A stretch of DNA of 64,000 nt from contig NC_014734.1 of assembly GCF_000183135.1 (NCBI RefSeq), positions 2,108,001 to 2,172,000 of the forward strand. Reading direction: 5' to 3'. Positions within the stretch are counted from its first letter, which is position 1. The number at the start of each line of letters is the position of its first letter. Source of the DNA: Paludibacter propionicigenes WB4 (GTDB taxonomy: Bacteria > Bacteroidota > Bacteroidia > Bacteroidales > Paludibacteraceae). This document shows positions 6,798 to 59,436 of this stretch, piece by piece. The notes beneath the pieces are model-generated. The model searched no databases and was not told the origin of the DNA. It was given only the letters and a program-made list of their open reading frames with translations. The translations under genes were made by a program, and so were the position numbers.

Positions 6798-7901
6798 CTA
6801 AAGCGTCGCAAATATATTTGATTCTTCGTATTCAAGTCGGGTAAGTTCGAATAGAAAAAATGATTCTGCATTTTGTGTCCAGGATCTGAATTCCTGACTT
6901 CTGGTGTATTGCGGCACAAAACCAAGCAGTAAATCCAGATCAAATTCATTGGCCGCCACGCCCGCACCTGAACTAATGGCATCAATCACATTACATTCTT
7001 GCTCAATATGGGTAGGCACCATTAATACCGGTTTTTGCATGTACATCGCTTCACACACCGATTCGAAACCGCCTGTAGTGGCATAAGCCTTACAACCGGC
7101 CATTTTTTCCAGAAAAAGTATATCACTTAGTTGATGCATAGTTAACGCAGGAGTGAGACTTTCAGTCTTTTGTACATTCTTCTTATCCCAAAAGAAATGA
7201 AGCGGCTGGTCAGGATTTTCAGTACTCCATGCAGCGAGTTCCTTCGCATAGCCACTGTTGAGCATATATCCGTGAATATAATCGCCGCTTGTAATTTCTT
7301 TCCGAAGCACTTCTTCACGAAGAAGCGGTGGCACAATAGTTATATTGCCATAATATAAGCTATTTTCTCTGCGGAATGACAATGCTAATATTTTATACGC
7401 ATTCAGAGCCGTAAGGCGCGAGTAAAAGTTCAACAATCTAAATTGTTTCTTATTTTCGCCCGTGTACCGAAAATCGGGAGTTAGAAAATAATACTGATGA
7501 GCCACGTTTATCATGGGTGGCTTTGGATTAAAAATTCCATAAGTTGCACCACACATCAGTTCGTAGAAATTGACAACCACATCGGGTTCATAAGTTTTTA
7601 TTGCACGCCGAATTGTCAACAAGCTACTGATATAAACCGGCAACAGTAATACATTATAAAGAATACTTATAATTAATGGTGACTGCTTACCTTTAGGTGT
7701 GGGCAGAAAATTCGGACTCTGAAACTGTATAACTTCATTCTCAATCTTTCTGGTAAAAAAGTCGGGCAATGTGCGTTTGGCACTACAACCAACCAACACA
7801 GCCACCACTTCATGACCATTTTTTTCAAGCATCGATTTTAAACTTAAAGCTTGAGTAAAATGGCCTCTGCCCTCACCTTGCACTACAAACAAGTATTTCA
7901 T
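6798..7901 (-). CDS. Glycosyltransferase with GT28/MurG-like fold
   Basis: 367 residues. The N-terminal VVQGEGRGHFTQALSLKSML is the glycine-rich nucleotide-binding start of MurG/GT28-like enzymes. The C-terminal half has TTGGFESVCEAMYMQKPVLM, the donor-sugar-binding G-G-x-x-x-x-x-E-A motif of the GT-B fold. No signal peptide is seen, so it is cytosolic or peripheral to the membrane, probably making a glycolipid or surface glycan. The start was set at the ATG at 7901 (MKYLFVVQ); the upstream GTG at 7938-7940 would add 13 hydrophilic residues with no support. It begins 42 bp after the metallophosphoesterase gene ends, so the two are probably co-transcribed. That suggests lipid A or glycolipid metabolism, an inference only. 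Confidence 0.8.
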   Translation of the reverse strand: MKYLFVVQGEGRGHFTQALSLKSMLEKNGHEVVAVLVGCSAKRTLPDFFTRKIENEVIQFQSPNFLPTPKGKQSPLIISILYNVLLLPVYISSLLTIRRAIKTYEPDVVVNFYELMCGATYGIFNPKPPMINVAHQYYFLTPDFRYTGENKKQFRLLNFYSRLTALNAYKILALSFRRENSLYYGNITIVPPLLREEVLRKEITSGDYIHGYMLNSGYAKELAAWSTENPDQPLHFFWDKKNVQKTESLTPALTMHQLSDILFLEKMAGCKAYATTGGFESVCEAMYMQKPVLMVPTHIEQECNVIDAISSGAGVAANEFDLDLLLGFVPQYTRSQEFRSWTQNAESFFLFELTRLEYEESNIFATL

Positions 7902-7943
7902 ATTATTGCTTTTCTTTTTGGCGTCTCTGATTGAAACCACACA

Positions 7944-8798
7944 TTAAAAAAACGGATTAAAGAAATTATTTGAGAAAGCTACTTTCATTGGATTCTTTGA
8001 TCCGGCAGGAAATTCAATGACTTCCATAGCTTGTTTTGGTTGCTCTTTGGTGGCATCGGTATGCATATAAACCTCCCATGTTCCATCTTCATGTTCCAAC
8101 AGTGCCGACATACTTTCCACCCAATCACCGGAGTTCAGGTAGTGAATACCATCGATCATTCTGTCGGCTGGTTGGTGAATGTGTCCGCAAATAATACCAT
8201 CTGCATGTCGTGATCTTGCAAGTGAAACAAGCTCATTTTCATAATTGGAAATATAGGAGACAGCGGATTTCACTTTCTGCTTAATACTCTGCGAAAGTGA
8301 GAAATATGGTAATCCTCTTTTAGCCCGATTTTTATTGTAAATTCGGTTAAGCCATAACAATAATGTATAGCCAACATCGCCAAGTTTGGCCAACCACACC
8401 ATTTTAGAGGTAACATTATCAAATATATCGCCATGTACCACATAATAGCGTTTGCCGTTTTTCACGTGCATATAATCTTTCACGATATTGATGTTGGCAA
8501 ATGACAGCGGTGCAATATAGTCAATGAAATCATCATGATTACCACGAACATAGATTACCTTAGTATTGTGGTTCTCCATCATTTTCATGATAATTTTGAA
8601 GAAGTCGGTATGTTCTTTCTTCCACTTTCCTTTTCCGCCTTTTTGCAGATGCCATCCATCAATAATATCGCCGTTAAGAATAAGAGTATCACAATTTACC
8701 GTGCGTAGAAATTCCGCCAGTTCAGCGGTTTTAGAATGTTCTGTTCCGAGGTGCACGTCGGAGATAACAATTGTAGGATAAAATTTTTGATTGTACAT
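7944..8798 (-). CDS. LpxH-like metallophosphoesterase (UDP-2,3-diacylglucosamine diphosphatase family)
   Basis: 284 residues with the calcineurin-like metal-binding motifs in order: SDVHLG (D-x-H, near residue 13), NGDIIDG (GD, near 43), YVRGNHDDF (GNHD, near 84), VVHGD and CGHIHQP (near 205). These bind two metal ions for phosphoester or pyrophosphate hydrolysis. The same set occurs in the LpxH family, which cleaves UDP-2,3-diacylglucosamine in lipid A synthesis. The protein is longer than the roughly 240 residues of E. coli LpxH, so other metallophosphoesterase roles remain possible. The start was set at the ATG at 8798: a TTG start at 8819 would lie inside a TTACTTTG -7-like box (8824-8817). 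It is first in a likely two-gene operon with the GT28-like gene. Confidence 0.78.
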   Translation of the reverse strand: MYNQKFYPTIVISDVHLGTEHSKTAELAEFLRTVNCDTLILNGDIIDGWHLQKGGKGKWKKEHTDFFKIIMKMMENHNTKVIYVRGNHDDFIDYIAPLSFANINIVKDYMHVKNGKRYYVVHGDIFDNVTSKMVWLAKLGDVGYTLLLWLNRIYNKNRAKRGLPYFSLSQSIKQKVKSAVSYISNYENELVSLARSRHADGIICGHIHQPADRMIDGIHYLNSGDWVESMSALLEHEDGTWEVYMHTDATKEQPKQAMEVIEFPAGSKNPMKVAFSNNFFNPFF

Positions 8799-8890
8799 AA
8801 GGTCTTTTTTTATTTGCAAAGTAACTGCTGTAATATTGCAGTGTTACAACAGCGACATTAAATTGCTGTTAAACTACAACTTAAAACAAG

Positions 8891-8948: not shown

Positions 8949-9761
8949 TTACATTTTCAATGGAACATAACCTACTTTTTCTACTATTTTTTGTCCTTCG
9001 GCAGATAGTATGAAACCTACAAAAGGAGAAAATTTAGCTTCGCTTTTCTTGTCATAGTAGAAATACAATGGACGTACAATCGGATATGTTTTATTCACTG
9101 CATTTGCCAATGATGGTTCAACAAAGTTTTTACCATCAAATGAAACGTGAAGTGCCTTCACTGTTTTGTTTAAATAAGCCAATCCTACATAACCAATTGC
9201 ACCTTTTGTTTGGCTAACCGATTGGATAATAGCTCCGGTAGCAGGCATACTTAGGATTGAGCTCATATAGTTTTTGTTCAACAATACGTGTTCTTTGAAG
9301 AATTCGTATGTACCTGAACTTGTTTCGCGTGAGTAAGGAACAATTTTCAAATCTTCACCACCTACTTGTTTCCAGTTAGTGATTTTACCTGTAAATATAC
9401 CTTCGAGTTGAGCACGTGTCAATTTAGAAACTCCGTTTGAAGGATTTACCACTACTGCTAATGCATCGTAAGCAATGATCTTAGTTGCAAGAGTTTTTCC
9501 ACCATCCTGATACTTCACTTTTTCATCGAATTTCATAGCACGTGAGGCCATCGCTATGTCAGTAGTTCCTTCGATAAGCGCAGAGATTCCGACACCACTA
9601 CCACCACCAATCACTGTAACCGATTTACCGGTTTTTTTCATAAACTGTTCTGCTTCTTTCTGTGCTAAAGGTAAAACCGTGTCACTACCTTTAACTTTCT
9701 GAGCGTAAAACGATGGAGCAATTGCGCAAACCATCATAACTGATAAAATAAGTTTTTTCAT
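8949..9761 (-). CDS. pstS: PstS phosphate-binding periplasmic protein
   Basis: 270 residues with a signal peptide (MKKLILSVMMVCAIAPSFYA). The mature protein starts KVKGSDTVLPLAQKEAEQF, the usual first phosphate-binding loop of PstS (GSDTV/GSSTV). Further binding-site elements are IGGGSGVGISAL (about 51-62), IAMASRAMK (about 69-77) and SRETSSGTYEFF (about 143). GKITNW (125-130) is a family hallmark. It delivers phosphate to the PstCAB permease in the inner membrane. It follows the porin gene after 58 bp on the same strand, opposite to pstCAB, and would share the porin's Pho-box promoter unless a further promoter lies in the 58-bp gap; none was seen there. It belongs to the short PstS type, about 270 rather than the 346 residues of E. 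coli. Confidence 0.95.
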   Translation of the reverse strand: MKKLILSVMMVCAIAPSFYAQKVKGSDTVLPLAQKEAEQFMKKTGKSVTVIGGGSGVGISALIEGTTDIAMASRAMKFDEKVKYQDGGKTLATKIIAYDALAVVVNPSNGVSKLTRAQLEGIFTGKITNWKQVGGEDLKIVPYSRETSSGTYEFFKEHVLLNKNYMSSILSMPATGAIIQSVSQTKGAIGYVGLAYLNKTVKALHVSFDGKNFVEPSLANAVNKTYPIVRPLYFYYDKKSEAKFSPFVGFILSAEGQKIVEKVGYVPLKM

Positions 9762-9819: not shown

Positions 9820-11130
9820 TTAGAATTTATATTGAAGACGAACTGTTACCAAATTGTCTTTTGCATCATTTATAAAACCTTTTAAGCTTGTTTTTTCATT
9901 AGAAACAATATCATAATAAGCCATTAAACGAACATTATTATTCAATCGATACAAATAACCCAGACCTAATGTAGAATAAGCTATATCTGCTTTACCTGCC
10001 TTATTAGCAACACTTACTTGACGTCCTGAAATATCTGTGTTAGGATCGTACCAATCGTATTTAACCACGATAGAGTGTTTTGTTCCGGCTATATCCTGAA
10101 CGAAGTTAACATAACCTCCCTGGAATTTACGAATATATGTATCATAAGCTACACCAGATGCAGTAGGATCAAAACCATTAAGACTTGCCGAACTTCCTGC
10201 AGCACCCGGTTGCTTTCCTTGTATGAATTCTGCACGGATAGAGCTAAGACCCAGGTCTGAAGCAATGCTAAACTGACCATCTACTCCAAAATATGAACGA
10301 TCAGCAAATGAACTAAGATTTGAAGCTGTGTTATTAAGAACAAATGCTCCGTTTGACATTGTATAAACATTGGCATTAGTTTGAAGAACGTATCCTGAGT
10401 ACATAGAAACACCAAAACCATATTTCATGTTAGCTTCAGCCTTGTTATAAGTTAAGTGAGCTGCAAAGTCTTTCTTGCTCTTGTAATCTTTACTAATAGC
10501 ATTACCTGAAAGCAATCCTGCTTCTAATTTCAACACATTCCATGGAGATGTTTTTGGAGCTTGGATAGTCAACATTGTACCAAGATCTTTTTCATCCGGG
10601 AATAACATTTGAGTAATACGGCTACGTTCAGGTGATTCAAGTTTAGAAGAAGAATAAGCAACTTCGTATCCGAACGGACGATCAAAAACCCCACCTTTAA
10701 TAGCGAAAGTATTCACCCATGGATCAAGTATATTCAAATAAAGATCTTTAGTTTTCAATCCGCTTTCAGAAATATCAAATTCTATTACTGCCTGGCAACC
10801 GAAATCTTCGTAAGTAGCTTTTAAACGACCACGACGTACTCCAAAACGGTTATAACTGCCTGTACCAACTTCCGGGAAGTTTTTTGAAATACCATTCTTC
10901 ATGTCATTTGATTTGTTTCCAAGAGAGTCAAGTTGAGAAGACTGCCATTGAGATTGAATGTACCCGCTGAATTTCAGTTTCTTCAATTGAAGTAAAACAT
11001 CTTCAACTGATGTAATGCGTTGATCAAGGACATTAAGTGAATCCACTTTTTCTTCTTGAGCGAAAGCAACTGTTGAGCAAATAAGACCCAAAACAATTAC
11101 CAAACTTTTTAGAGTAACTTTAATTTTCAT
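9820..11130 (-). CDS. Phosphate-selective porin, OprO/OprP family
   Basis: 436 residues: signal peptide (…LVIVLGLICSTVAFAQ), a short coiled-coil-like segment (VLDQRITSVEDVLLQLKKL, about 34-52) as in OprP trimers, then an antiparallel beta-barrel starting SGYIQSQWQ. It ends with an aromatic outer-membrane signature (VTVRLQYKF, terminal Phe). GVRRGRLKATYEDFG (about 97-111) is typical of OprO/OprP porins, whose basic residues line an anion channel. It would let phosphate or polyphosphate cross the outer membrane. It is the first gene of the leftward pho transcript, followed by pstS. Its promoter (11172-11229) carries four 11-bp-phased Pho-box repeats, so it should be induced by phosphate starvation. 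Confidence 0.9.
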   Translation of the reverse strand: MKIKVTLKSLVIVLGLICSTVAFAQEEKVDSLNVLDQRITSVEDVLLQLKKLKFSGYIQSQWQSSQLDSLGNKSNDMKNGISKNFPEVGTGSYNRFGVRRGRLKATYEDFGCQAVIEFDISESGLKTKDLYLNILDPWVNTFAIKGGVFDRPFGYEVAYSSSKLESPERSRITQMLFPDEKDLGTMLTIQAPKTSPWNVLKLEAGLLSGNAISKDYKSKKDFAAHLTYNKAEANMKYGFGVSMYSGYVLQTNANVYTMSNGAFVLNNTASNLSSFADRSYFGVDGQFSIASDLGLSSIRAEFIQGKQPGAAGSSASLNGFDPTASGVAYDTYIRKFQGGYVNFVQDIAGTKHSIVVKYDWYDPNTDISGRQVSVANKAGKADIAYSTLGLGYLYRLNNNVRLMAYYDIVSNEKTSLKGFINDAKDNLVTVRLQYKF

Positions 11131-11171: not shown

Positions 11172-11229
11172 CAAAGAAACTGCGACCAGATTACAGTGTT
11201 TTGTCAAATACATTACATTATTGTTACAA
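11172..11229 (-). promoter_or_regulatory. Pho-box promoter of the porin-pstS operon
   Basis: Read on the minus strand: TTGTAAC (11229-11223), ATGTAAT (11218-11212), TTGACAA (11207-11201) and CTGTAAT (11196-11190) are repeated exactly every 11 bp. Then come 10 nt and TTTCTTTG (11179-11172), matching the Bacteroidetes -7 box TAnnTTTG at all but one fixed position. The first repeat starts 50 bp before the box. The 7-mer plus 4-nt spacer matches the known E. coli Pho-box layout. Binding by the PhoB-type protein at 15309-15998 is inferred. Confidence 0.75.
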
Positions 11230-11312
11230 ATAAAAAATCGGTTTCTTAATGTGTAAATTGCTGAAAAACATACAATAATATTAAGCGAAAGAAAACTTCA
11301 ACGAAATATGTA

Positions 11313-11370
11313 TTGTAACATTTTTGTAACACTGCTTTAATTTCATCTTAATATGAAAGCTATTCCTTTG
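11313..11370 (+). promoter_or_regulatory. Pho-box promoter of pstCAB-phoU
   Basis: TTGTAAC (11313-11319) and TTGTAAC (11324-11330), with weaker CTTTAAT (11335-11341) and TCTTAAT (11346-11352), all on an 11-bp step. Then come 10 nt and the -7-like box TTCCTTTG (11363-11370). The first repeat starts exactly 50 bp before the box, as in the two other promoters of this locus. Transcription should begin near 11376, which rules out the TTG at 11373 as start of pstC and favours GTG 11397. Confidence 0.75.
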
Positions 11371-11396
11371 CATTGATTTTAAAAACAAAGCACAAC

Positions 11397-12587
11397 GTGA
11401 AACGATTCTTAGAAAAATTAGTAGAAGGAGCATTATTGATTAGCGGAAGCATAACCAGTATCACTATTTTGTTGATAATAATTTTCTTATTCAAAGAAGC
11501 CTCAGGGTTATTCAATAGTCCGGTTGTGGAAGAAGGATATGTATTGGCATTCAATAAAGCGAATCCGGTAAAAAAACTAAGTTCTTATCAAATAAAAGAA
11601 ATATTTGATGGAAAAATAACAAACTGGGACGAAGTCGGAGGTAAAGAAGAACCCATAGAATTAGTCCGCCTGAGTGACTTAACCAAGTACTACACTGAGG
11701 AAGAGTTGGGTGCTAATTTTGAAAATATCCCGGCAAAAGCCAGCGAACTGACCGCAAAACATCCCGGCATCATATTGTTTTTACCTAAAAATTACGTAGC
11801 CAAAAACTTCAATGGTACATTGCTGAAACATGAAACCCTGAAACCCGGCGATTTTTTTGGCGGAAAAGAATGGTATCCTACAGCATCACCATCTCCTCAA
11901 TATGGATTATTACCGTTACTACTTGGTACAATTTGGGTGAGCCTCGGAGCCATATTGCTATCCTTGCCGTTTGGCATCGCCGTTGCTGTTTACTTGGCTG
12001 AAATTGCCACCATGCGGGTTCGAAATATATTAAAGCCGATTATCGAATTACTTGCCGGAATACCTTCGGTAGTCTATGGGTTCTTTGGTTTGGTGGTTAT
12101 TGTTCCTTTTCTACAAAAACTATTTCATTTGCCTGTAGGCGAAACGGCTTTAGCCGGAAGTGTTGTTTTGGGAATCATGGCATTGCCAACTATCATAACC
12201 GTGGCAGAAGATGCCATGCGTACCGTACCAAGAGCTATGAAAGAAGCCAGTCTGGCTTTAGGAGCCACACACTGGCAGACCATTTATAAAGTAATAATCC
12301 CTTACGCTAAATCTGGAATCACTTCTGCAGCTGTATTAGGAATCGGACGAGCCATTGGTGAAACCATGGCAGTATTAATGGTAACAGGTAATGCTGCCGT
12401 TATACCTCATACTTTGTTGGAACCTGTTAGAACCATTCCTGCTACCATTGCCGCAGAACTTGGTGAAGTTTCAGCCGGAAGCGGACACTATCAGGCCTTA
12501 TTTATGCTCGGTGTAATTTTATTTATTATCACCATGATTATCAGTATTAGTATAGAGTTTATTGGCAAAAAGAAATATAGCAACTAA
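11397..12587 (+). CDS. pstC: PstC phosphate permease with a PstS-like segment in its first periplasmic loop
   Basis: 396 residues from GTG 11397. TM1 is at about residues 12-34. A hydrophilic stretch of about 120 residues follows (about 45-165), then the usual binding-protein-dependent permease core: GTIWVSLGAILLSLPFGIAV, the LLAGIPSVVYGFFGL motif and the cytoplasmic EAA loop (EASLALGATHWQTIYKVIIP). The extra stretch resembles PstS itself: LSSYQIKEIFDGKITNWDEV (61-80) aligns with LTRAQLEGIFTGKITNWKQV of the PstS in this window, sharing GKITNW. E. coli PstC is about 319 residues, so the length difference is this insertion. It forms the phosphate channel with PstA. No ATG exists in frame near the 5' end; GTG fits the predicted transcription start. 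pstA follows after 4 bp. Confidence 0.93.
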   Translation: MKRFLEKLVEGALLISGSITSITILLIIIFLFKEASGLFNSPVVEEGYVLAFNKANPVKKLSSYQIKEIFDGKITNWDEVGGKEEPIELVRLSDLTKYYTEEELGANFENIPAKASELTAKHPGIILFLPKNYVAKNFNGTLLKHETLKPGDFFGGKEWYPTASPSPQYGLLPLLLGTIWVSLGAILLSLPFGIAVAVYLAEIATMRVRNILKPIIELLAGIPSVVYGFFGLVVIVPFLQKLFHLPVGETALAGSVVLGIMALPTIITVAEDAMRTVPRAMKEASLALGATHWQTIYKVIIPYAKSGITSAAVLGIGRAIGETMAVLMVTGNAAVIPHTLLEPVRTIPATIAAELGEVSAGSGHYQALFMLGVILFIITMIISISIEFIGKKKYSN

Positions 12588-12591
12588 AATT

Positions 12592-13479
12592 ATGACACCT
12601 ATTATAAATTCGGGAAGAACCGACAATAAAAAACGTTTATCGCAAGCCGTAGCGTTTACCATTTTTAAACTGATGAGCTATTCGGTTGTTCTAATTTTAT
12701 TTCTAATTCTTGGTTTTATCGTCACCAAAGGAATTGGCGTGATTAGTTGGGATTTTCTGACTAAAGCCCCCGAAGAAGGTATGACCAAAGGTGGAATATT
12801 CCCTGCTATTGTAGGAACGCTCTGCTTGGTTTTGGGAAGTAGCGTATTCAGTTTCCCTATCGGAATCATGTCGGGTATTTATATGAACGAATATGCAGCC
12901 GGAAATAAATTTGCCACTTTTGTGCGCATTATGACTAACAACCTGAGTGGTGTTCCGTCAGTTGTTTTCGGGCTTTTCGGGATGTCGCTCTTTGTAAACA
13001 CTATGAAATTCGGCGATTCTATCTTAGCCGGCTCGCTCACATTGGGATTACTTTCACTCCCATTAGTAATTCGTACCACCGAAGAATCGTTGAAAGCCAT
13101 AGACAAATCGTACCGCGAAGGAAGCTTGGCACTCGGTGCTACAAAGCTTCAAACTATCCGAAAAGTAATTATGCCAATGGCATTTCCAAATATCATTACC
13201 GGATTAATTTTGTCGATAGGTCGTGTTTCGGGCGAAACTGCTCCAATTCTGTTCACGGTTGCAGCTTATTTCTTGCCCAAATTACCAACCAGTATTTTCG
13301 ATCAGGTAATGGCGTTACCATACCATTTATACGTTATTTCAACCAGTGGAACCGACATTAACTCAAGCCGAGGCATTGCTTATGGAACTGCGTTGGTACT
13401 TATTGTCATTGTATTGATTGTAAATCTACTGGCCAATTTCTTACGAAGCTATTTTGCAAAAAAAGTAAAAACGAATTAA
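12592..13479 (+). CDS. pstA: PstA phosphate permease subunit
   Basis: 295 residues with six hydrophobic segments. Family marks are GIFPAIVGTLCLVLGSSVFS (start of the permease domain), NLSGVPSVVFGLFGM (matching the PstC loop) and the ATPase-docking EAA loop EGSLALGATKLQTIRKVIMP. It pairs with PstC in the inner membrane. The start was set at ATG 12592, 4 bp after the pstC stop; the upstream in-frame codons overlap pstC and add only a short basic stretch. The length is close to that of E. coli PstA (296). It is followed by pstB after 78 bp. Confidence 0.94.
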   Translation: MTPIINSGRTDNKKRLSQAVAFTIFKLMSYSVVLILFLILGFIVTKGIGVISWDFLTKAPEEGMTKGGIFPAIVGTLCLVLGSSVFSFPIGIMSGIYMNEYAAGNKFATFVRIMTNNLSGVPSVVFGLFGMSLFVNTMKFGDSILAGSLTLGLLSLPLVIRTTEESLKAIDKSYREGSLALGATKLQTIRKVIMPMAFPNIITGLILSIGRVSGETAPILFTVAAYFLPKLPTSIFDQVMALPYHLYVISTSGTDINSSRGIAYGTALVLIVIVLIVNLLANFLRSYFAKKVKTN

Positions 13480-13557
13480 AAACAGTCAAAAAACATAAGT
13501 CAACGGTCAAAAGAAAGACCTGAGACATGGGACTTTGAACATCAGACATAAAAAAAC

Positions 13558-14310
13558 ATGCTAACCATTGATGCAAAAAACGTTGATTTTTACTACAGTG
13601 ATTTTCACGCACTGAAAAACATCAACTTCGAAGTAGAAAAAAACAAAGTTGTGGCCTTGATCGGACCTTCGGGTTGTGGTAAGTCAACTTTCCTACGTTT
13701 AATAAACCGTATGAACGACCTGATTGACGGAACACGCATGACAGGAACCGTATTGGTAGAAGGTAAAGATATTTACGCCCCCAACATTCATGTCGACGAA
13801 TTGCGCAAAGAAGTAGGAATGGTTTTTCAAAAGCCAAATCCATTTCCAAAATCAATTTTCGAGAACGTTGCGTATGGTCTCCGGGTTAATGGTATAAAGG
13901 ATAGCACTTTTATTGAAGAACGTGTTATTGAGTCCATTAAATCGGCAGCTTTGTGGGACGAGGTAAAAGATAAATTGAATAAATCGGCATTTGCTCTTTC
14001 GGGAGGTCAACAACAGCGACTTTGCATTGCCCGCGCATTGGCAATTTCGCCTAAAGTGGTGCTTATGGATGAACCGGCTTCGGCTCTCGATCCGATTTCT
14101 ACCGCCAAAGTTGAAGAATTGATTCATGAACTGAAAAAAGATTACACCATTATTATCGTTACACACAACATGCAGCAGGCATCTCGTGTTAGTGATAAAA
14201 CAGCTTATTTCTATCTGGGGGAACTGATTGAATACGACGAAACAACAAAAATATTCACCAATCCAACCGAGCATTCAACACAAAATTATATCACCGGAAG
14301 GTTTGGTTGA
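13558..14310 (+). CDS. pstB: PstB phosphate ABC transporter ATPase
   Basis: 250 residues. Walker [10 protein letters not shown] lies at 36-44, the Q-loop at [19 protein letters not shown], the ABC signature at LSGGQQQR and Walker B at [13 protein letters not shown], with the switch histidine in [12 protein letters not shown]. The KPNPFPKSI stretch after the Q-loop and the [13 protein letters not shown] region are characteristic of PstB. It hydrolyses ATP on the cytoplasmic face of PstCA and also signals phosphate status with PhoU to PhoR. It lies in the pst operon. Downstream, 155 bp containing a dispersed inverted repeat separate it from phoU. Confidence 0.96.
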
Positions 14311-14324
14311 TATGAACTCCTAAA

Positions 14325-14446
14325 GACCCCTAACCCCGTTCGACTAAGCTCACGCCGAAGCCTAAAGGGGAATAAGAAATATTAGAATTGACTTATAAAA
14401 TCTACATTAAGAACTTGATCTTTATTCCCCTTTAGGGGTTGGGGTC
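14325..14446. repeat. Inverted pair of CCCCTAACCCC/CCTAAAGGGG elements between pstB and phoU
   Basis: Copy 1 (14325-14375) reads GACCCCTAACCCC, then about 23 bp (GTTCGACTAAGCTCACGCCG AAG), then CCTAAAGGGGAATAAG. Copy 2 (14420-14446) is the reverse complement without the central insert: CTTTATTCCCC then TTTAGGGGTTGGGGTC. The two face each other across 44 bp and could fold into a long hairpin in the pst transcript. The G/C-run palindrome resembles dispersed REP-like elements of Bacteroidetes genomes, and the insert resembles another such element. It might lower phoU expression relative to pstB. Confidence 0.65.
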
Positions 14447-14465
14447 AACAATAAGAATAAAGAAT

Positions 14466-15131
14466 ATGACACACTTAGAACAAGAACTGATAACGCTCAA
14501 ACAAGACGTTACCGAAATGTGGAAACTGGTTATTTCTCAGGTTAGCAATTCGGGCGAAGCCATTCTGTCGTTCGATAAAGAATTGGCAAAGAAAGTATCG
14601 ATGCGCGAAAAAAAAGTAGATGCATACGAGCTCAAAATAGACCGGTTTTGCGAAAATGTAATCGCGCTTTACCAACCTGTGGCAGTCGACTTACGTTTTG
14701 TGCTTGCTGTGTTGAAAATCAACTCTAACCTGGAACGTATTGCTGACTTTGCCTACGGGATTTCGGGCGTGTTGATTGCCAATCCTTCTGTCATTCTCGA
14801 TGCCGAAATCATTTCCGAAACTAACTTGCGGTTAATGATCGATCAGGTAACCAAAATGTTGACACAAGGTCTTGAAGCTTTCGAAAACGAAAAATCTGAT
14901 ATTGCCTCGGCTATTTTCAGCGAAGATTATCAGGTAGACGAAATTAATATCGATGCTGCACGTATTATTGCGGACTATATTCAGCGTAACCCCGACAGGG
15001 CTTTTGAGTGCCTGCAATTGGTAAGTGCATTCCGCAAGTTGGAGCGCATTGGAGACCACTGCAGCAACATAGCCGAAGAAATTTTCTTCTACGTGGACGC
15101 CAAGGTGCTGAAGCATTCTCCGAAGGAATAA
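14466..15131 (+). CDS. phoU: PhoU phosphate-signalling protein
   Basis: 221 residues, all helical, with two PhoU repeats. The first has LITLKQDVTEMWKLVISQVS and the metal-site region REKKVDAYELKIDRF (about 57-71), then PVAVDLRFVLAVLKINSNLE. The second has DYQVDEINIDAARII (about 162) and ASAFRKLERIGDHCSNIAEE-like residues near 195-215 (here LVSAFRKLERIGDHCSNIAE). PhoU links PstB to PhoR and represses the Pho response when phosphate is plentiful. The start was set at ATG 14466; a TTG at 14439 lies inside the inverted repeat and is rejected. The regulator gene follows 177 bp downstream with its own Pho-box promoter. Confidence 0.94.
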   Translation: MTHLEQELITLKQDVTEMWKLVISQVSNSGEAILSFDKELAKKVSMREKKVDAYELKIDRFCENVIALYQPVAVDLRFVLAVLKINSNLERIADFAYGISGVLIANPSVILDAEIISETNLRLMIDQVTKMLTQGLEAFENEKSDIASAIFSEDYQVDEINIDAARIIADYIQRNPDRAFECLQLVSAFRKLERIGDHCSNIAEEIFFYVDAKVLKHSPKE

Positions 15132-15224
15132 TTTCTGATATCATTTGTCTTTCTAAAGCGGTAAATCAACAATTGATTTGCCGCTTTGCATTTATTTTAA
15201 AGTAATTACGCTAGATTTAAAATT

Positions 15225-15282
15225 TTGTAATACTTTTGTAACAGTTATTACACAGCTCCGAAATATACAATTAGTTTCTTTG
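15225..15282 (+). promoter_or_regulatory. Pho-box promoter of the phoB-phoR pair
   Basis: TTGTAAT (15225-15231) and TTGTAAC (15236-15242) lie 11 bp apart. The next two positions in phase (15247, 15258) are degenerate. A TTTCTTTG -7-like box lies at 15275-15282, again exactly 50 bp after the first repeat, and 26 nt precede the ATG at 15309. The layout implies autoregulation of the two-component pair under phosphate starvation. Confidence 0.72.
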
Positions 15283-15308: not shown

Positions 15309-15998
15309 ATGAATCCTTATCGTATTTTGGTAGTAGACGACGAAGAAGACTTGTGTGAAATTCTTCAATTTAATCTGGAAACTGAAGGTTATCTGGTGGA
15401 TGTAGCTTATTCGGCTGAAGAAGCACTAAAAAAAGACATTAGCATCTATAATTTACTTTTGCTTGATGTAATGATGGGAGAAGTTTCAGGGTTCAAAATG
15501 GCTCGCATACTCAGGGAAAACCCTAAGATGGCAAACATCCCAATCATTTTTCTTACGGCAAAAGACTCCGAAACAGACAGACTCACAGGGTTTAATATAG
15601 GTGCTGACGACTATATCTCCAAACCATTTTCTATTCGCGAAGTGCTTGCACGCGTGAAAGCCGTTATCCGCAGGGCAGACACCAATAAAGTTGAAGCTGC
15701 TCCGACATTGGTGCTGAGTTACGAGAAACTTGAAATGTCATTGGAAAACAAAAAAGTAATGCTCGAGGGAGTTGAAGTTCCATTCACTAAAAAGGAATTC
15801 GAAATACTGAAGCTTTTTCTGGGAAACAAAAACCGTGTTTTTTCACGCGATGAAATGTTGTCCAGAGTCTGGAGCGATGAAGTCATTGTACTCGACCGCA
15901 CAATCGATGTAAACATTACCCGACTGCGCAAAAAAATTGGTCCATACGGAAAAAATATCGTGACACGATTGGGCTATGGATATTGTTTCGAGGAATAA
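15309..15998 (+). CDS. phoB: PhoB-type response regulator (OmpR family)
   Basis: 229 residues. The receiver domain (1-120) has the acidic pocket D10/D11, the phosphoacceptor Asp53 (LLLLDVMMGE), Thr in FLTAKD and Lys in YISKPFS. A winged-helix DNA-binding domain follows (about 130-229), with VPFTKKEFEILKLFL, RDEMLSRVW and RTIDVNITRLRKKIG, the OmpR/PhoB recognition helix pattern. Its place between phoU and a PhoR-like kinase supports a role in phosphate control. It would bind the 11-bp-phased repeats in front of the porin gene, pstC and itself; this is inferred from the shared sites. The kinase gene starts 56 bp downstream. Confidence 0.9.
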   Translation: MNPYRILVVDDEEDLCEILQFNLETEGYLVDVAYSAEEALKKDISIYNLLLLDVMMGEVSGFKMARILRENPKMANIPIIFLTAKDSETDRLTGFNIGADDYISKPFSIREVLARVKAVIRRADTNKVEAAPTLVLSYEKLEMSLENKKVMLEGVEVPFTKKEFEILKLFLGNKNRVFSRDEMLSRVWSDEVIVLDRTIDVNITRLRKKIGPYGKNIVTRLGYGYCFEE

Positions 15999-16054: not shown

Positions 16055-17782
16055 ATGACTTTAAACCGCCGCCTTTTCCTGTACTTTTTCAGCATCTTTT
16101 TTTTGATGCTGGCTATTATCTGTTTCTTTCAGTACGAGCGCGAAAAAGAGTTCCGCACCGAGCAGCTTGACCAACAACTCAGCACTTACAATTTCACCAT
16201 TTTCCGGTTTATCAAAGAGCAAAAACCAAACTGGGAAATGCTGGAAGAATATGTTCATCTATTCCCCGACACCGCGCTGCGCGTGACCGTTATTGATACT
16301 ACAGGAGTTGTGATCTTCGATTCCTCAGTCAAAAAAGGCACAAAGTTGGGCAACCACCTGAACCGCCCGGAAATAGAAATGTCCGCTTATACCGAGAACG
16401 GAAAAGCCATACGTCACTCCGTTTCTACCGGAAAAGATTATTATTATCTGGCTCACAAATTCCCAGCAAGCTATATCCGCAGTGCTTTGCCCTACAACGT
16501 CAGCCTGGTGAGTATGCTCAAGGCCAATACTTTCTTCCTGTACTTTATGGGGTTGGTATTAATCTTCGCCGTACTTGCACTCTATCTTATTTCCCGAAAC
16601 TTCACCAGATCCATCGACCGATTGCGCATATTTACCCAGAAGGCTGAAAAGGAAGAGTTTCTGGACACAGATATTGAGTTCCCGAATGATGAACTGGGTG
16701 AAATCAGTAAGAATATCGTGAAACTATATAAACTCCAGTTGCAGACCAAAGTAGAAGTAAATAATGAACGGGAAAAACTCATTAAACACCTTCAGATTTC
16801 GCAGGAGGGACTTGGAATTTTCTCATCGGAGAAAAAAGAAACACTTGCTAATTCGCACTTTATTCAATACACAAATATAATTTCCGATCAACAATGTGAA
16901 ACATCCGACCAGATATTTTCATTACCTGAATTTGCCGAATTAAATGAGTTTATTGATAAAAGTCTGTTGAATAATCAGCTGAATCGTAAACGATTGACCG
17001 TTGAAAAAGGAGGTCGGGTTTTTGCTGTACAGTGCATTGTATTCCAAGATGATACTTTCGAAATTTCTATAAATGACATTACCGTTCAGGAACACGAAAA
17101 CGAATTGAAAAGGCATCTTACGCAAAATATTTCGCATGAGCTCAAAACTCCTGTAAGCAGCATATTGGGTTACATGGAAAGCATTCTCGAAAACCCGGAC
17201 ATGGACACCGAGCGTCAACGCTTTTTTGTGGATCGGTCATTTCAGCAAGCGCAACGCCTTAGAGACTTATTGCAGGATATCTCTACGCTGAATAAAATGG
17301 ATGAAGGTCAACGTCTGTTCCAAAAAGAACCATGCAATATTTCGGATGTCATTTCGGATGTTTTGAATGACGTTCACCTCCAAATAGAGCAAAAAGAATG
17401 TAAGGTTATACAAAGCTTCCAGCCGAATACTCAAATACTAGGCAACCGCTCACTTCTATATTCCATCTTCCGCAATCTGATGGACAATACGTTGAATTAT
17501 GCCGGCGAAAAACTTACCATCGAAATTAGTTGCTACCGGGAAGATGAACAATTCTACTATTTTTCGTTTAGCGATAATGGTGTAGGGGTCGCCGAAGAAC
17601 ACTTAAACAGACTGTTTGAACGTTTTTATCGGGTTGATAAAGGACGTAGCAGAAAGCAGGGTGGAACCGGACTAGGATTAGCAATTGTGAAAAATGCTGT
17701 CATTTACCATCGGGGAACTATCTCTGCTAAGCGGGTTCCTTCGGGTGGACTAAGCTTTATTTTTTCTCTTCGTAAATTCTAG
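16055..17782 (+). CDS. phoR: PhoR-like sensor histidine kinase
   Basis: 575 residues: TM1 (about 8-25), a periplasmic sensor region of about 130 residues (about 30-160), TM2 (LYFMGLVLIFAVLALYLISR, about 168-187), a HAMP-like linker, a PAS-like middle part, a HisKA domain with His361 in NISHELKTP, and an HATPase domain with N-box NLMDNTLNYA, G1 box DNGVGV and G2 box GGTGLGLAIVK. The long periplasmic domain differs from E. coli PhoR, which has almost none, so signal input may be partly direct. It autophosphorylates and passes phosphate to the regulator encoded 56 bp upstream. The window shows no other partner. Confidence 0.9.
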   Translation: MTLNRRLFLYFFSIFFLMLAIICFFQYEREKEFRTEQLDQQLSTYNFTIFRFIKEQKPNWEMLEEYVHLFPDTALRVTVIDTTGVVIFDSSVKKGTKLGNHLNRPEIEMSAYTENGKAIRHSVSTGKDYYYLAHKFPASYIRSALPYNVSLVSMLKANTFFLYFMGLVLIFAVLALYLISRNFTRSIDRLRIFTQKAEKEEFLDTDIEFPNDELGEISKNIVKLYKLQLQTKVEVNNEREKLIKHLQISQEGLGIFSSEKKETLANSHFIQYTNIISDQQCETSDQIFSLPEFAELNEFIDKSLLNNQLNRKRLTVEKGGRVFAVQCIVFQDDTFEISINDITVQEHENELKRHLTQNISHELKTPVSSILGYMESILENPDMDTERQRFFVDRSFQQAQRLRDLLQDISTLNKMDEGQRLFQKEPCNISDVISDVLNDVHLQIEQKECKVIQSFQPNTQILGNRSLLYSIFRNLMDNTLNYAGEKLTIEISCYREDEQFYYFSFSDNGVGVAEEHLNRLFERFYRVDKGRSRKQGGTGLGLAIVKNAVIYHRGTISAKRVPSGGLSFIFSLRKF

Positions 17783-59239: not shown

Positions 59240-59397
59240 TTATAACTATGACGACTGAGTGACGAAAGTATAACATCAAAAATGAAAAAAACTCACAACA
59301 AAATTAAAGTAAATAATTTCAACTATCAACAAATCATTCCTAATGAGTGAATTATTCGCGAGTGAGTAAAATTGTAACATAAATTTCATTCCGGAAA

Positions 59398-59436
59398 TTT
59401 GGATTTCTCAAAACTATGTCGTATGTTTGCGACATA
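59398..59436 (+). promoter_or_regulatory. Promoter and operator of ars operon 2
   Basis: TTTG (59398-59401), 20 nt, TATGTTTG (59422-59429): a match to the -33/-7 consensus. A perfect inverted repeat TATGTCG (59415-59421) / CGACATA (59430-59436) flanks the -7 box with an 8-bp centre. The geometry is that of operon 1, so ArsR binding would cover the -7 element. The ATG follows 19 nt later. Confidence 0.8.

Follow-up and report, generated by a model that had tools for sequence, protein, structure and literature searches.

Pho boxes are described as direct 7-bp repeats separated by 4-bp spacers, with a consensus that differs among species (PMC4415409), and the spacing between the box and the core promoter is reported to be strict (PMC10294691). 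Three promoters in the phosphate locus of Paludibacter propionicigenes WB4, a member of the Bacteroidales, have a comparable organization. They lie in a window of 64,000 nucleotides (NC_014734.1, positions 2,108,001 to 2,172,000), a term used here for the whole stretch of DNA that was analysed, and precede a porin-pstS pair, pstC, and phoB. Judged from sequence, they are probably PhoB-activated promoters of the E. coli class, in which tandem boxes end 10 bp before a −7 box and the proximal PhoB dimer would replace the −33 element; this reading is given a probability of roughly 0.85. Because the Pho-box consensus varies among species, the missing E. coli repeat CTGTCAT is no bar to membership in the wider kind.

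In E. coli MG1655, the pstS promoter contains two boxes, CTGTCAT aaaa CTGTCAT attc CTTACAT ataa CTGTCAC, followed by ctgtttgtcc and TATTTT, which places the hexamer at 50 bp. The phoA promoter (CTGTCAT aaag TTGTCAC ggccgagact TATAGT) and the phoB promoter (TTTTCAT aaat CTGTCAT aaatctgacg CATAAT) have one box each, with the hexamer at 28 bp. TATTTT, TATAGT, and CATAAT are the hexamers that we take to be the −10 elements of pstS, phoA, and phoB, respectively.

Comparable systems are found within the Bacteroidota. The PhoRB regulon of Bacteroides fragilis, likewise of the Bacteroidales, shares with the window the head-to-head placement of pstS and pstCAB-phoU; induction of pstC depends there on PhoB, and the protein shifts a 512-bp fragment of the pstC promoter, for which the consulted parts of the paper define neither a binding sequence nor a promoter geometry (PMC3547664). 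PhoP of Riemerella anatipestifer is likewise a two-component response regulator of the Bacteroidota with a motif from DNA affinity purification sequencing (DAP-seq), and it differs in that this motif is TTTAACA, likened to that of ArcA, with 583 peaks; the string “pst” is absent from the main text of that paper (PMC9603813). In Flavobacterium johnsoniae, also of the Bacteroidota, PlcP, a glycosyltransferase, and PhoB belong to the PHO regulon induced at low phosphate, and “Pho box”, “promoter”, and “motif” have 0 occurrences each in the main text (PMC8115612). A literature search for a Bacteroidales Pho box returned no defined site, within a coverage that most subscription papers and bioRxiv preprints fall outside.

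Read directly, the porin-pstS, pstC, and phoB promoters of the window each carry two WTGTAAY 7-mers at an 11-bp step, and TTnCTTTG starts 50 bp after the first 7-mer. Two further units follow in register, and a 10-bp spacer leads to the −7 box. The three promoters are given below with their expectation values (E) under R1, a profile of two-box promoters.
11172..11229, minus strand, porin-pstS promoter: TTGTAAC, ATGTAAT, TTGACAA, and CTGTAAT at offsets 0, 11, 22, and 33, a 10-bp spacer, and the −7 box TTTCTTTG at 11179-11172 (E 7.1e-12)
11313..11370, plus strand, pstC promoter: TTGTAAC, TTGTAAC, CTTTAAT, and TCTTAAT, a 10-bp spacer, and the −7 box TTCCTTTG at 11363-11370 (E 1.1e-10)
15225..15282, plus strand, phoB promoter: TTGTAAT, TTGTAAC, ATTACAC, and CCGAAAT, the last two weak, a 10-bp spacer, and the −7 box TTTCTTTG at 15275-15282 (E 1.6e-10)
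Scored out of 7 against WTGTAAY, the four units reach 7, 7, 4, and 6 for porin-pstS, 7, 7, 5, and 5 for pstC, and 7, 7, 4, and 4 for phoB. Direct observations are the repeats with their register, the 10-bp gap, and the conservation of this arrangement before phosphate genes of the Bacteroidales. The original prediction had proposed an identical geometry for the three promoters, and the 11-bp step and the box at +50 are indeed read exactly in each; its further claims of a 7+4 repeat layout and of a consensus unlike CTGTCAT also hold, the layout being present in all three promoters and favoured in the pst loci discussed below.

A scan of the genome (3,685,504 bases) with the composite pattern, allowing at most two mismatches, returned three matches, all with 0 mismatches, which are the three window promoters; the reversed pattern gave 0 matches in the same genome. 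The composite pattern was derived from the same three sites, and independent tests therefore weigh more. R1 was built from alignment A4, which comprises 18 of the 19 two-box sites found across the order and 22 of the 26 sites of relatives (40 rows, of which 39 are distinct and one is a duplicate), with the Paludibacter genome itself excluded and same-genus relatives included. In a ranking of 150 of the 4729 first-look candidates, this profile from other genomes places the window sites 1 to 3 genome-wide (E 7e-12 to 1.6e-10), followed by a match at 7.4e-6. A second alignment, A5, comprises 20 of the 22 one-box sites.

The distance between pair and box was examined in 295 Bacteroidales genomes by collecting perfect pairs followed by TnnnTTTG at 24 to 54 bp, with gene annotation unused. 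The 130 matches include 26 at distance 28 (23 genomes) and 31 at distance 50 (23 genomes, 3 matches being those of the window), and the remaining 29 distances average 2.5 matches each. With the matches of P. propionicigenes excluded, the binomial P under an even null over the 31 distances is 6e-14 for 28 and 8e-16 for 50. These are the distances of the one-box phoA and phoB promoters and the two-box pstS promoter of E. coli, respectively. Three-unit arrays, which would appear at distance 39, were considered and gave three matches, a background level. In the next range, distances 61 and 72 rank at the top of 31, with 8 and 9 of 99 matches (P 0.015 and 0.005, uncorrected), a weak signal that fits the long pstC arrays of Bacteroides, Parabacteroides, Phocaeicola, and relatives. 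The pstC loci of other Bacteroides species, a set that does not include the B. fragilis promoter, carry an in-register array in which the box lies at 72. Among the 23 distinct promoters of the 72 type, units match at 0, 11, 22, 44, and 55; an earlier count of six matching units was discarded, since a recount gives five with slot 33 at background. The fixed 50-bp distance of the original prediction thus stands in part: 50 is a real peak, 28 is about as common, and upstream of pstC Bacteroides, Parabacteroides, and relatives also have 61 and 72.

The same geometry was recovered from pst loci by a separate route. In 80 loci, four 7-mers were scored before each TnnnTTTG lying at most 100 nucleotides (nt) from the start of an open reading frame (ORF), over 7 periods and 13 gaps. 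The combination of period 11 and gap 10 ranks first of the 91 geometries (18.14, against 13.61 for the others, with a standard deviation of 0.39), and 10 is the best of the 13 gaps at period 11. When boxes with a pair of at most one mismatch in the upstream 75 bp were dropped, which reduced 663 boxes to 596, the 11/10 geometry was again first in the 80 loci (15.29 against 13.38, z 6.7). It was also first in the 27 non-Cytophagales loci without a pair near pstC (16.44 against 13.12, z 7.5); two of these, L074 and L075, carry a pair before another box, and such boxes were dropped for this z value. After removal of similar loci, 11/10 is the sole best geometry in 35 of 73 loci (0.8 expected), and after further removal of Cytophagales and Paludibacter-like loci it is so in 25 of 55 (0.6 expected). 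As 11/10 comes first even with pair-bearing boxes dropped, the geometry outlasts the 7-mer. Among the best-scoring places of each locus, L097:1401-1458 and L098:3800-3857 show drifted units (CCGTAGC and CCGTAAT; ACTTAAC and AGGTAAC), with period 11, gap 10, and the box kept.

These results bear on the possibility that AT-rich intergenic DNA, rich in TGTAA repeats and TTTG boxes, merely supplied three look-alike promoters that were picked by eye. Single 7-mers are common, and a pair with at most one mismatch is expected about 0.9 times per window by chance; the pair alone was matched five times in this window against 0.87 expected. Peaks one base pair wide at 28 and 50 in 295 genomes, the first rank of 11/10 among 91 geometries, and the top three ranks of the window sites under a profile from other genomes are not accounted for in this way, and chance was rejected on the genome scan, the distance peaks, and the geometry grid; its probability is judged to be negligible.

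The genes that follow the sites were analysed for 52 of the 57 on-peak matches, with the three of the window and two of genome G037 left out. An ORF starts at most 160 nt downstream in 42 cases, and 6 of the 52 matches lie inside a long frame, compared with 28 of 61 off-peak combinations of pair and box (from 57 distinct pairs, part of 73 off-peak rows). Pfam assigns the 42 ORFs to PHO4 transporters (10), Porin_O_P (7), polyphosphate kinase (3), PhoB-type regulators (3), PhoU (2), PBP-like (2), and a Na/Pi cotransporter, BPD_transp_1, a metallophosphoesterase, and a phosphodiesterase (1 each), some proteins matching two families. Transport, kinase, and regulator genes account for about 27 of the 42, with the Na/Pi cotransporter and PstC each counted once. 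For the 21 distinct off-peak ORFs scanned, the families shown are Na/Pi cotransporter (2), PhoB-type (1), and Porin_O_P (1), the rest having no evident tie to phosphate. Enrichment of the motif before phosphate genes, a corollary of the original prediction, is therefore seen across Bacteroidales genomes in both the distance peaks and the downstream families.

The original prediction had an activator working from a fixed distance. Taken as action across an empty 50-bp gap, this part is not supported: other Bacteroidales genomes supplied 19 two-box promoters, and in their spacers the mean match to WTGTAAY rises above z 3 at two offsets only, 22 (z 5.9) and 33 (z 5.2), so that weaker repeats occupy the gap. 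The pstC promoter of L008 reads TTGTAAC atct TTGTAAC atct TCGTAAT gcag ATTTAAT acgattgccg TTTCTTTG, and those of L010 and L015 are similar. With these in-register units at 22 and 33, a stretch of 10 bp separates the −7 box from the end of the nearest Pho box, which is also the E. coli spacing. One-box promoters (n = 22) have weak upstream units at −11 (z 3.7) and −22 (z 5.5), and with these extra units the one-box and two-box kinds look like a single four-unit array that differs in which half is strong. A regulator that binds the strong 7-mers alone (offsets 0-18) and acts from a distance, for instance through the alpha subunits, with the −7 side unbound, would fit the window promoters in that their units 1 and 2 are perfect and their units 3 and 4 weak. 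Yet independent promoters also show units 3 and 4 in register, and the one-box (28) promoters have their strong box at 10 bp from the −7 box. Activation from afar over an empty gap was therefore rejected once units 3 and 4 had been found, and action at a distance from the outer pair is considered improbable.

At the fixed position of the two-box promoters stands TnnnTTTG, which was part of the search pattern. The −7 consensus of the Bacteroidetes primary sigma factor is TAnnTTTG, and its second base, A, is shared by 15 of the 19 two-box promoters from other genomes, the three window promoters having T instead. The boxes are probably of the Bacteroidetes −7 type, as in the original prediction. 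A −33 TTG at a spacer of 19-21 bp occurs once among 40 two-box promoters and once among 20 one-box promoters, in agreement with the predicted lack of a −33 element. Its absence from 39 of the 40 two-box promoters is expected if the proximal PhoB dimer takes its place.

The genes of the phosphate locus are as follows.
8949..9761, minus strand, pstS (TIGR02136, 253 bits against a cut-off of 206.6; PF12849)
9820..11130, minus strand, putative outer-membrane porin (no Pfam or NCBIfam family matches it at 0.001; two other 50-type sites have homologues downstream, with 44 and 47% identity)
11397..12587, plus strand, pstC (PF00528 and PF12849)
12592..13479, plus strand, pstA (PF00528 and operon position)
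13558..14310, plus strand, pstB (PF00005 and operon position)
14466..15131, plus strand, phoU (PF01895)
15309..15998, plus strand, phoB, the proposed activator (NF053854, 360.8 bits against a cut-off of 270)
16055..17782, plus strand, phoR, the sensor kinase (NF053855, 833 bits against a cut-off of 500)
NF053854 and NF053855 are NCBIfam models built for Bacteroides PhoB and PhoR, and the former bears out the earlier assignment of a PhoB-type regulator (361 bits against 270). PstC has an additional PstS-like domain (PBP_like_2) near its N terminus, at residues 35-117, beside the permease domain.

The recognition helix of the window PhoB, RTIDVNITRLRK, is close to that of E. coli PhoB, RTVDVHIRRLRK. 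Of the loop residues that we take to touch sigma in E. coli PhoB (W184, G185, V190, and D192), W, V, and D are kept, and S replaces G. A protein search of 119 genomes of the class found a PhoB match at E 1e-60 in 6, P. propionicigenes included, too few for a study of phoB promoters there.

In the proposed mechanism, PhoB dimers would occupy tandem Pho boxes in head-to-tail fashion, each box consisting of two WTGTAAY 7-mers at an 11-bp step. Two boxes, or four units, would stand in line, and a 10-bp gap would separate the end of the last unit from the initial T of the −7 box; two box lengths and this gap would add up to the 50-bp spacing. The dimer adjoining the −7 box would occupy the place of the −33 element and recruit sigma region 4. 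Binding by PhoB, its contact with sigma, and transcription starts about 7 nt past the box are inferred; the same mode of PhoB action is suggested by the strict box spacing (PMC10294691), the data for B. fragilis PhoB (PMC3547664), and the geometry.

A different regulator of the OmpR family could be the main binder, and a second PhoB-type gene (G000:C1:2944035-2944712; L278:4536-5219) is one example. It passes NF053854 with 332 bits (cut-off 270), is 68% identical to the window PhoB, has a recognition helix nearly the same as that of the window protein, and is preceded by the fourth-ranked R1 match (E 7.4e-6), in which three in-register units, TTGTAAT, ATATCAT, and TCGTAAC, are followed by 10 bp and TAACTTTG. 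Against this, the window phoB is a neighbour of phoR and pst and has a site of its own before it, and a histidine-kinase family match was found in 0 of the 7 ORFs neighbouring the second regulator (10-kb stretch scanned). Such a replacement of the window PhoB as main binder is unlikely, and the two proteins could share sites. A gene for a patatin-like phospholipase follows the second regulator.

Several observations weigh against PhoB-activated promoters with tandem boxes and a fixed gap. Within the window, the phoB promoter has scores of just 4 of 7 for its units 3 and 4, the background mean being 2.7. In other loci, the pstC box of L016 is at 51 rather than 50, and no site lies directly upstream of pstC in the relatives L018, L019, and L021-L023; the pstC upstream stretch is too short to judge in L012, L017, L024, L035, and L036. 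In the 72-type promoters, slot 33 is at background (2.87), compared with 5.96, 4.52, and 4.83 at 22, 44, and 55. Of the 31 matches at 50, 3 look like copies of one repeat in genome G045, and 10 of the 52 on-peak matches have no ORF start within 160 nt. Off-peak sites also occur before phosphate genes (PhoB at 49 and two Na/Pi cotransporters at 46), so that the spacing is not absolute. Beyond the order, the Cytophagales pst loci (n = 9) do not favour 11/10 (rank 9 of 91, z 1.3), and the 51 matches outside the Bacteroidales in a sample of 395 genomes of the phylum include 5 at 28 (P 0.02) and 0 at 50. A phylum-wide motif is thus unsupported; other orders may use another 7-mer, and the sequence evidence carries the rule for the Bacteroidales only. 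As to the repeat in G045, a recurring element with TGTAATTG-CTTTGTAATTA on contigs C48, C58, and C60 (L152-L154) supplies the three matches, which are probably not promoters.

Further R1 and one-box matches in the genome are predicted Pho sites of lower confidence than the three window promoters. The first lies beside the pst genes.
8817..8874, minus strand, candidate fourth Pho promoter, before the PlcP-like gene: GTTTAAC, ATTTAAT, CTGTTGT, and CTGCAAT, 10 bp, and TTACTTTG
7944-8798, minus strand, PlcP-like metallophosphoesterase (PF00149/PF12850)
6798-7940, minus strand, glycosyltransferase after the PlcP-like gene (PF13528)
The array is weak and in register (R1 E 0.0064). PlcP-like homologues with 74-86% identity occur in four loci, and four units, 10 bp, and TTACTTTG precede the homologous gene in register in three of them (L026, L028, and L033, not L040). 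The array is probably the Pho promoter of the metallophosphoesterase gene. By eye, a near-palindrome, TGTAAC-8-ATTACA, overlaps it on the minus strand in the region 8814-8850. A pairing of plcP with a glycosyltransferase gene is reported among the lipid-remodelling pairs of marine bacteria (PMC4796936), and the two genes at 6798..8798 beside pst are possibly a phosphate-sparing pair for lipid remodelling.

The best match to the one-box profile (G000:C1:279603-279642, L280; E 0.0027) reads ATGCAAC atac TTGTAAT atctaagctg TTACTTTG and precedes pbfA, which encodes a hydroxy-aminoethylphosphonate ammonia-lyase, a DUF5690 gene, and phnW; this is probably a phosphonate locus under a Pho box. A PhnX-like hydrolase, below its cut-off, is encoded there on the opposite strand. 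In the window, a weak in-register site at 59372-59429 (R1 E 0.04), with a good match in the first two units only, precedes genes for an ArsR-family regulator (PF01022) and an arsenate-reductase-like protein (below its NCBIfam cut-off); arsenate is a chemical analogue of phosphate. Another match, at G000:C1:2841092-2841147 (two-box profile, E 3.5e-4), has no ORF of at least 80 residues starting at most 300 nt downstream.

Overall, the Bacteroidales promoters share with those of E. coli the 7+4 direct repeats, the tandem boxes, the 10 bp from the last 7-mer to the −10 or −7 element, and the position before phosphate-uptake genes, with phoB and pst among the targets. Unlike E. coli, they have WTGTAAY in place of CTGTCAT and a Bacteroidetes-type TnnnTTTG in place of TATAAT, and PHO4 transporters, polyphosphate kinase, and Porin_O_P porins are also among the genes that follow them. 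If the proposed reading is correct, two primary sigma factors that read different promoters both work with a Pho array placed 10 bp from the −12 position, and PhoB replaces the −33 element in the Bacteroidales as it does the −35 element in E. coli. Boxes would then be strengthened as whole dimer units, with perfect pairs on units 1 and 2 (31) or 3 and 4 (26) and the straddling pair on 2 and 3 at background (3); the long Bacteroides pstC arrays, in which distances 61 and 72 are both present, are an exception. The balance tips slightly towards a PhoB-sigma-promoter geometry that either predates the split of Proteobacteria and Bacteroidota or became fixed on two occasions through one and the same structure, with the 7-mer free to drift. 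By the sequence rule of WTGTAAY units every 11 bp, a gap of 10 bp, and TnnnTTTG, many PhoB promoters of the Bacteroidales, an order with major gut genera among its members, would be readable from raw sequence. Predicted targets are PHO4 transporters, polyphosphate kinase, and probably genes for phosphonate use and lipid remodelling. The system would also provide a clean case in which to study an activator that was built for a given sigma-promoter geometry and works with a sigma factor of −33/−7 promoters.

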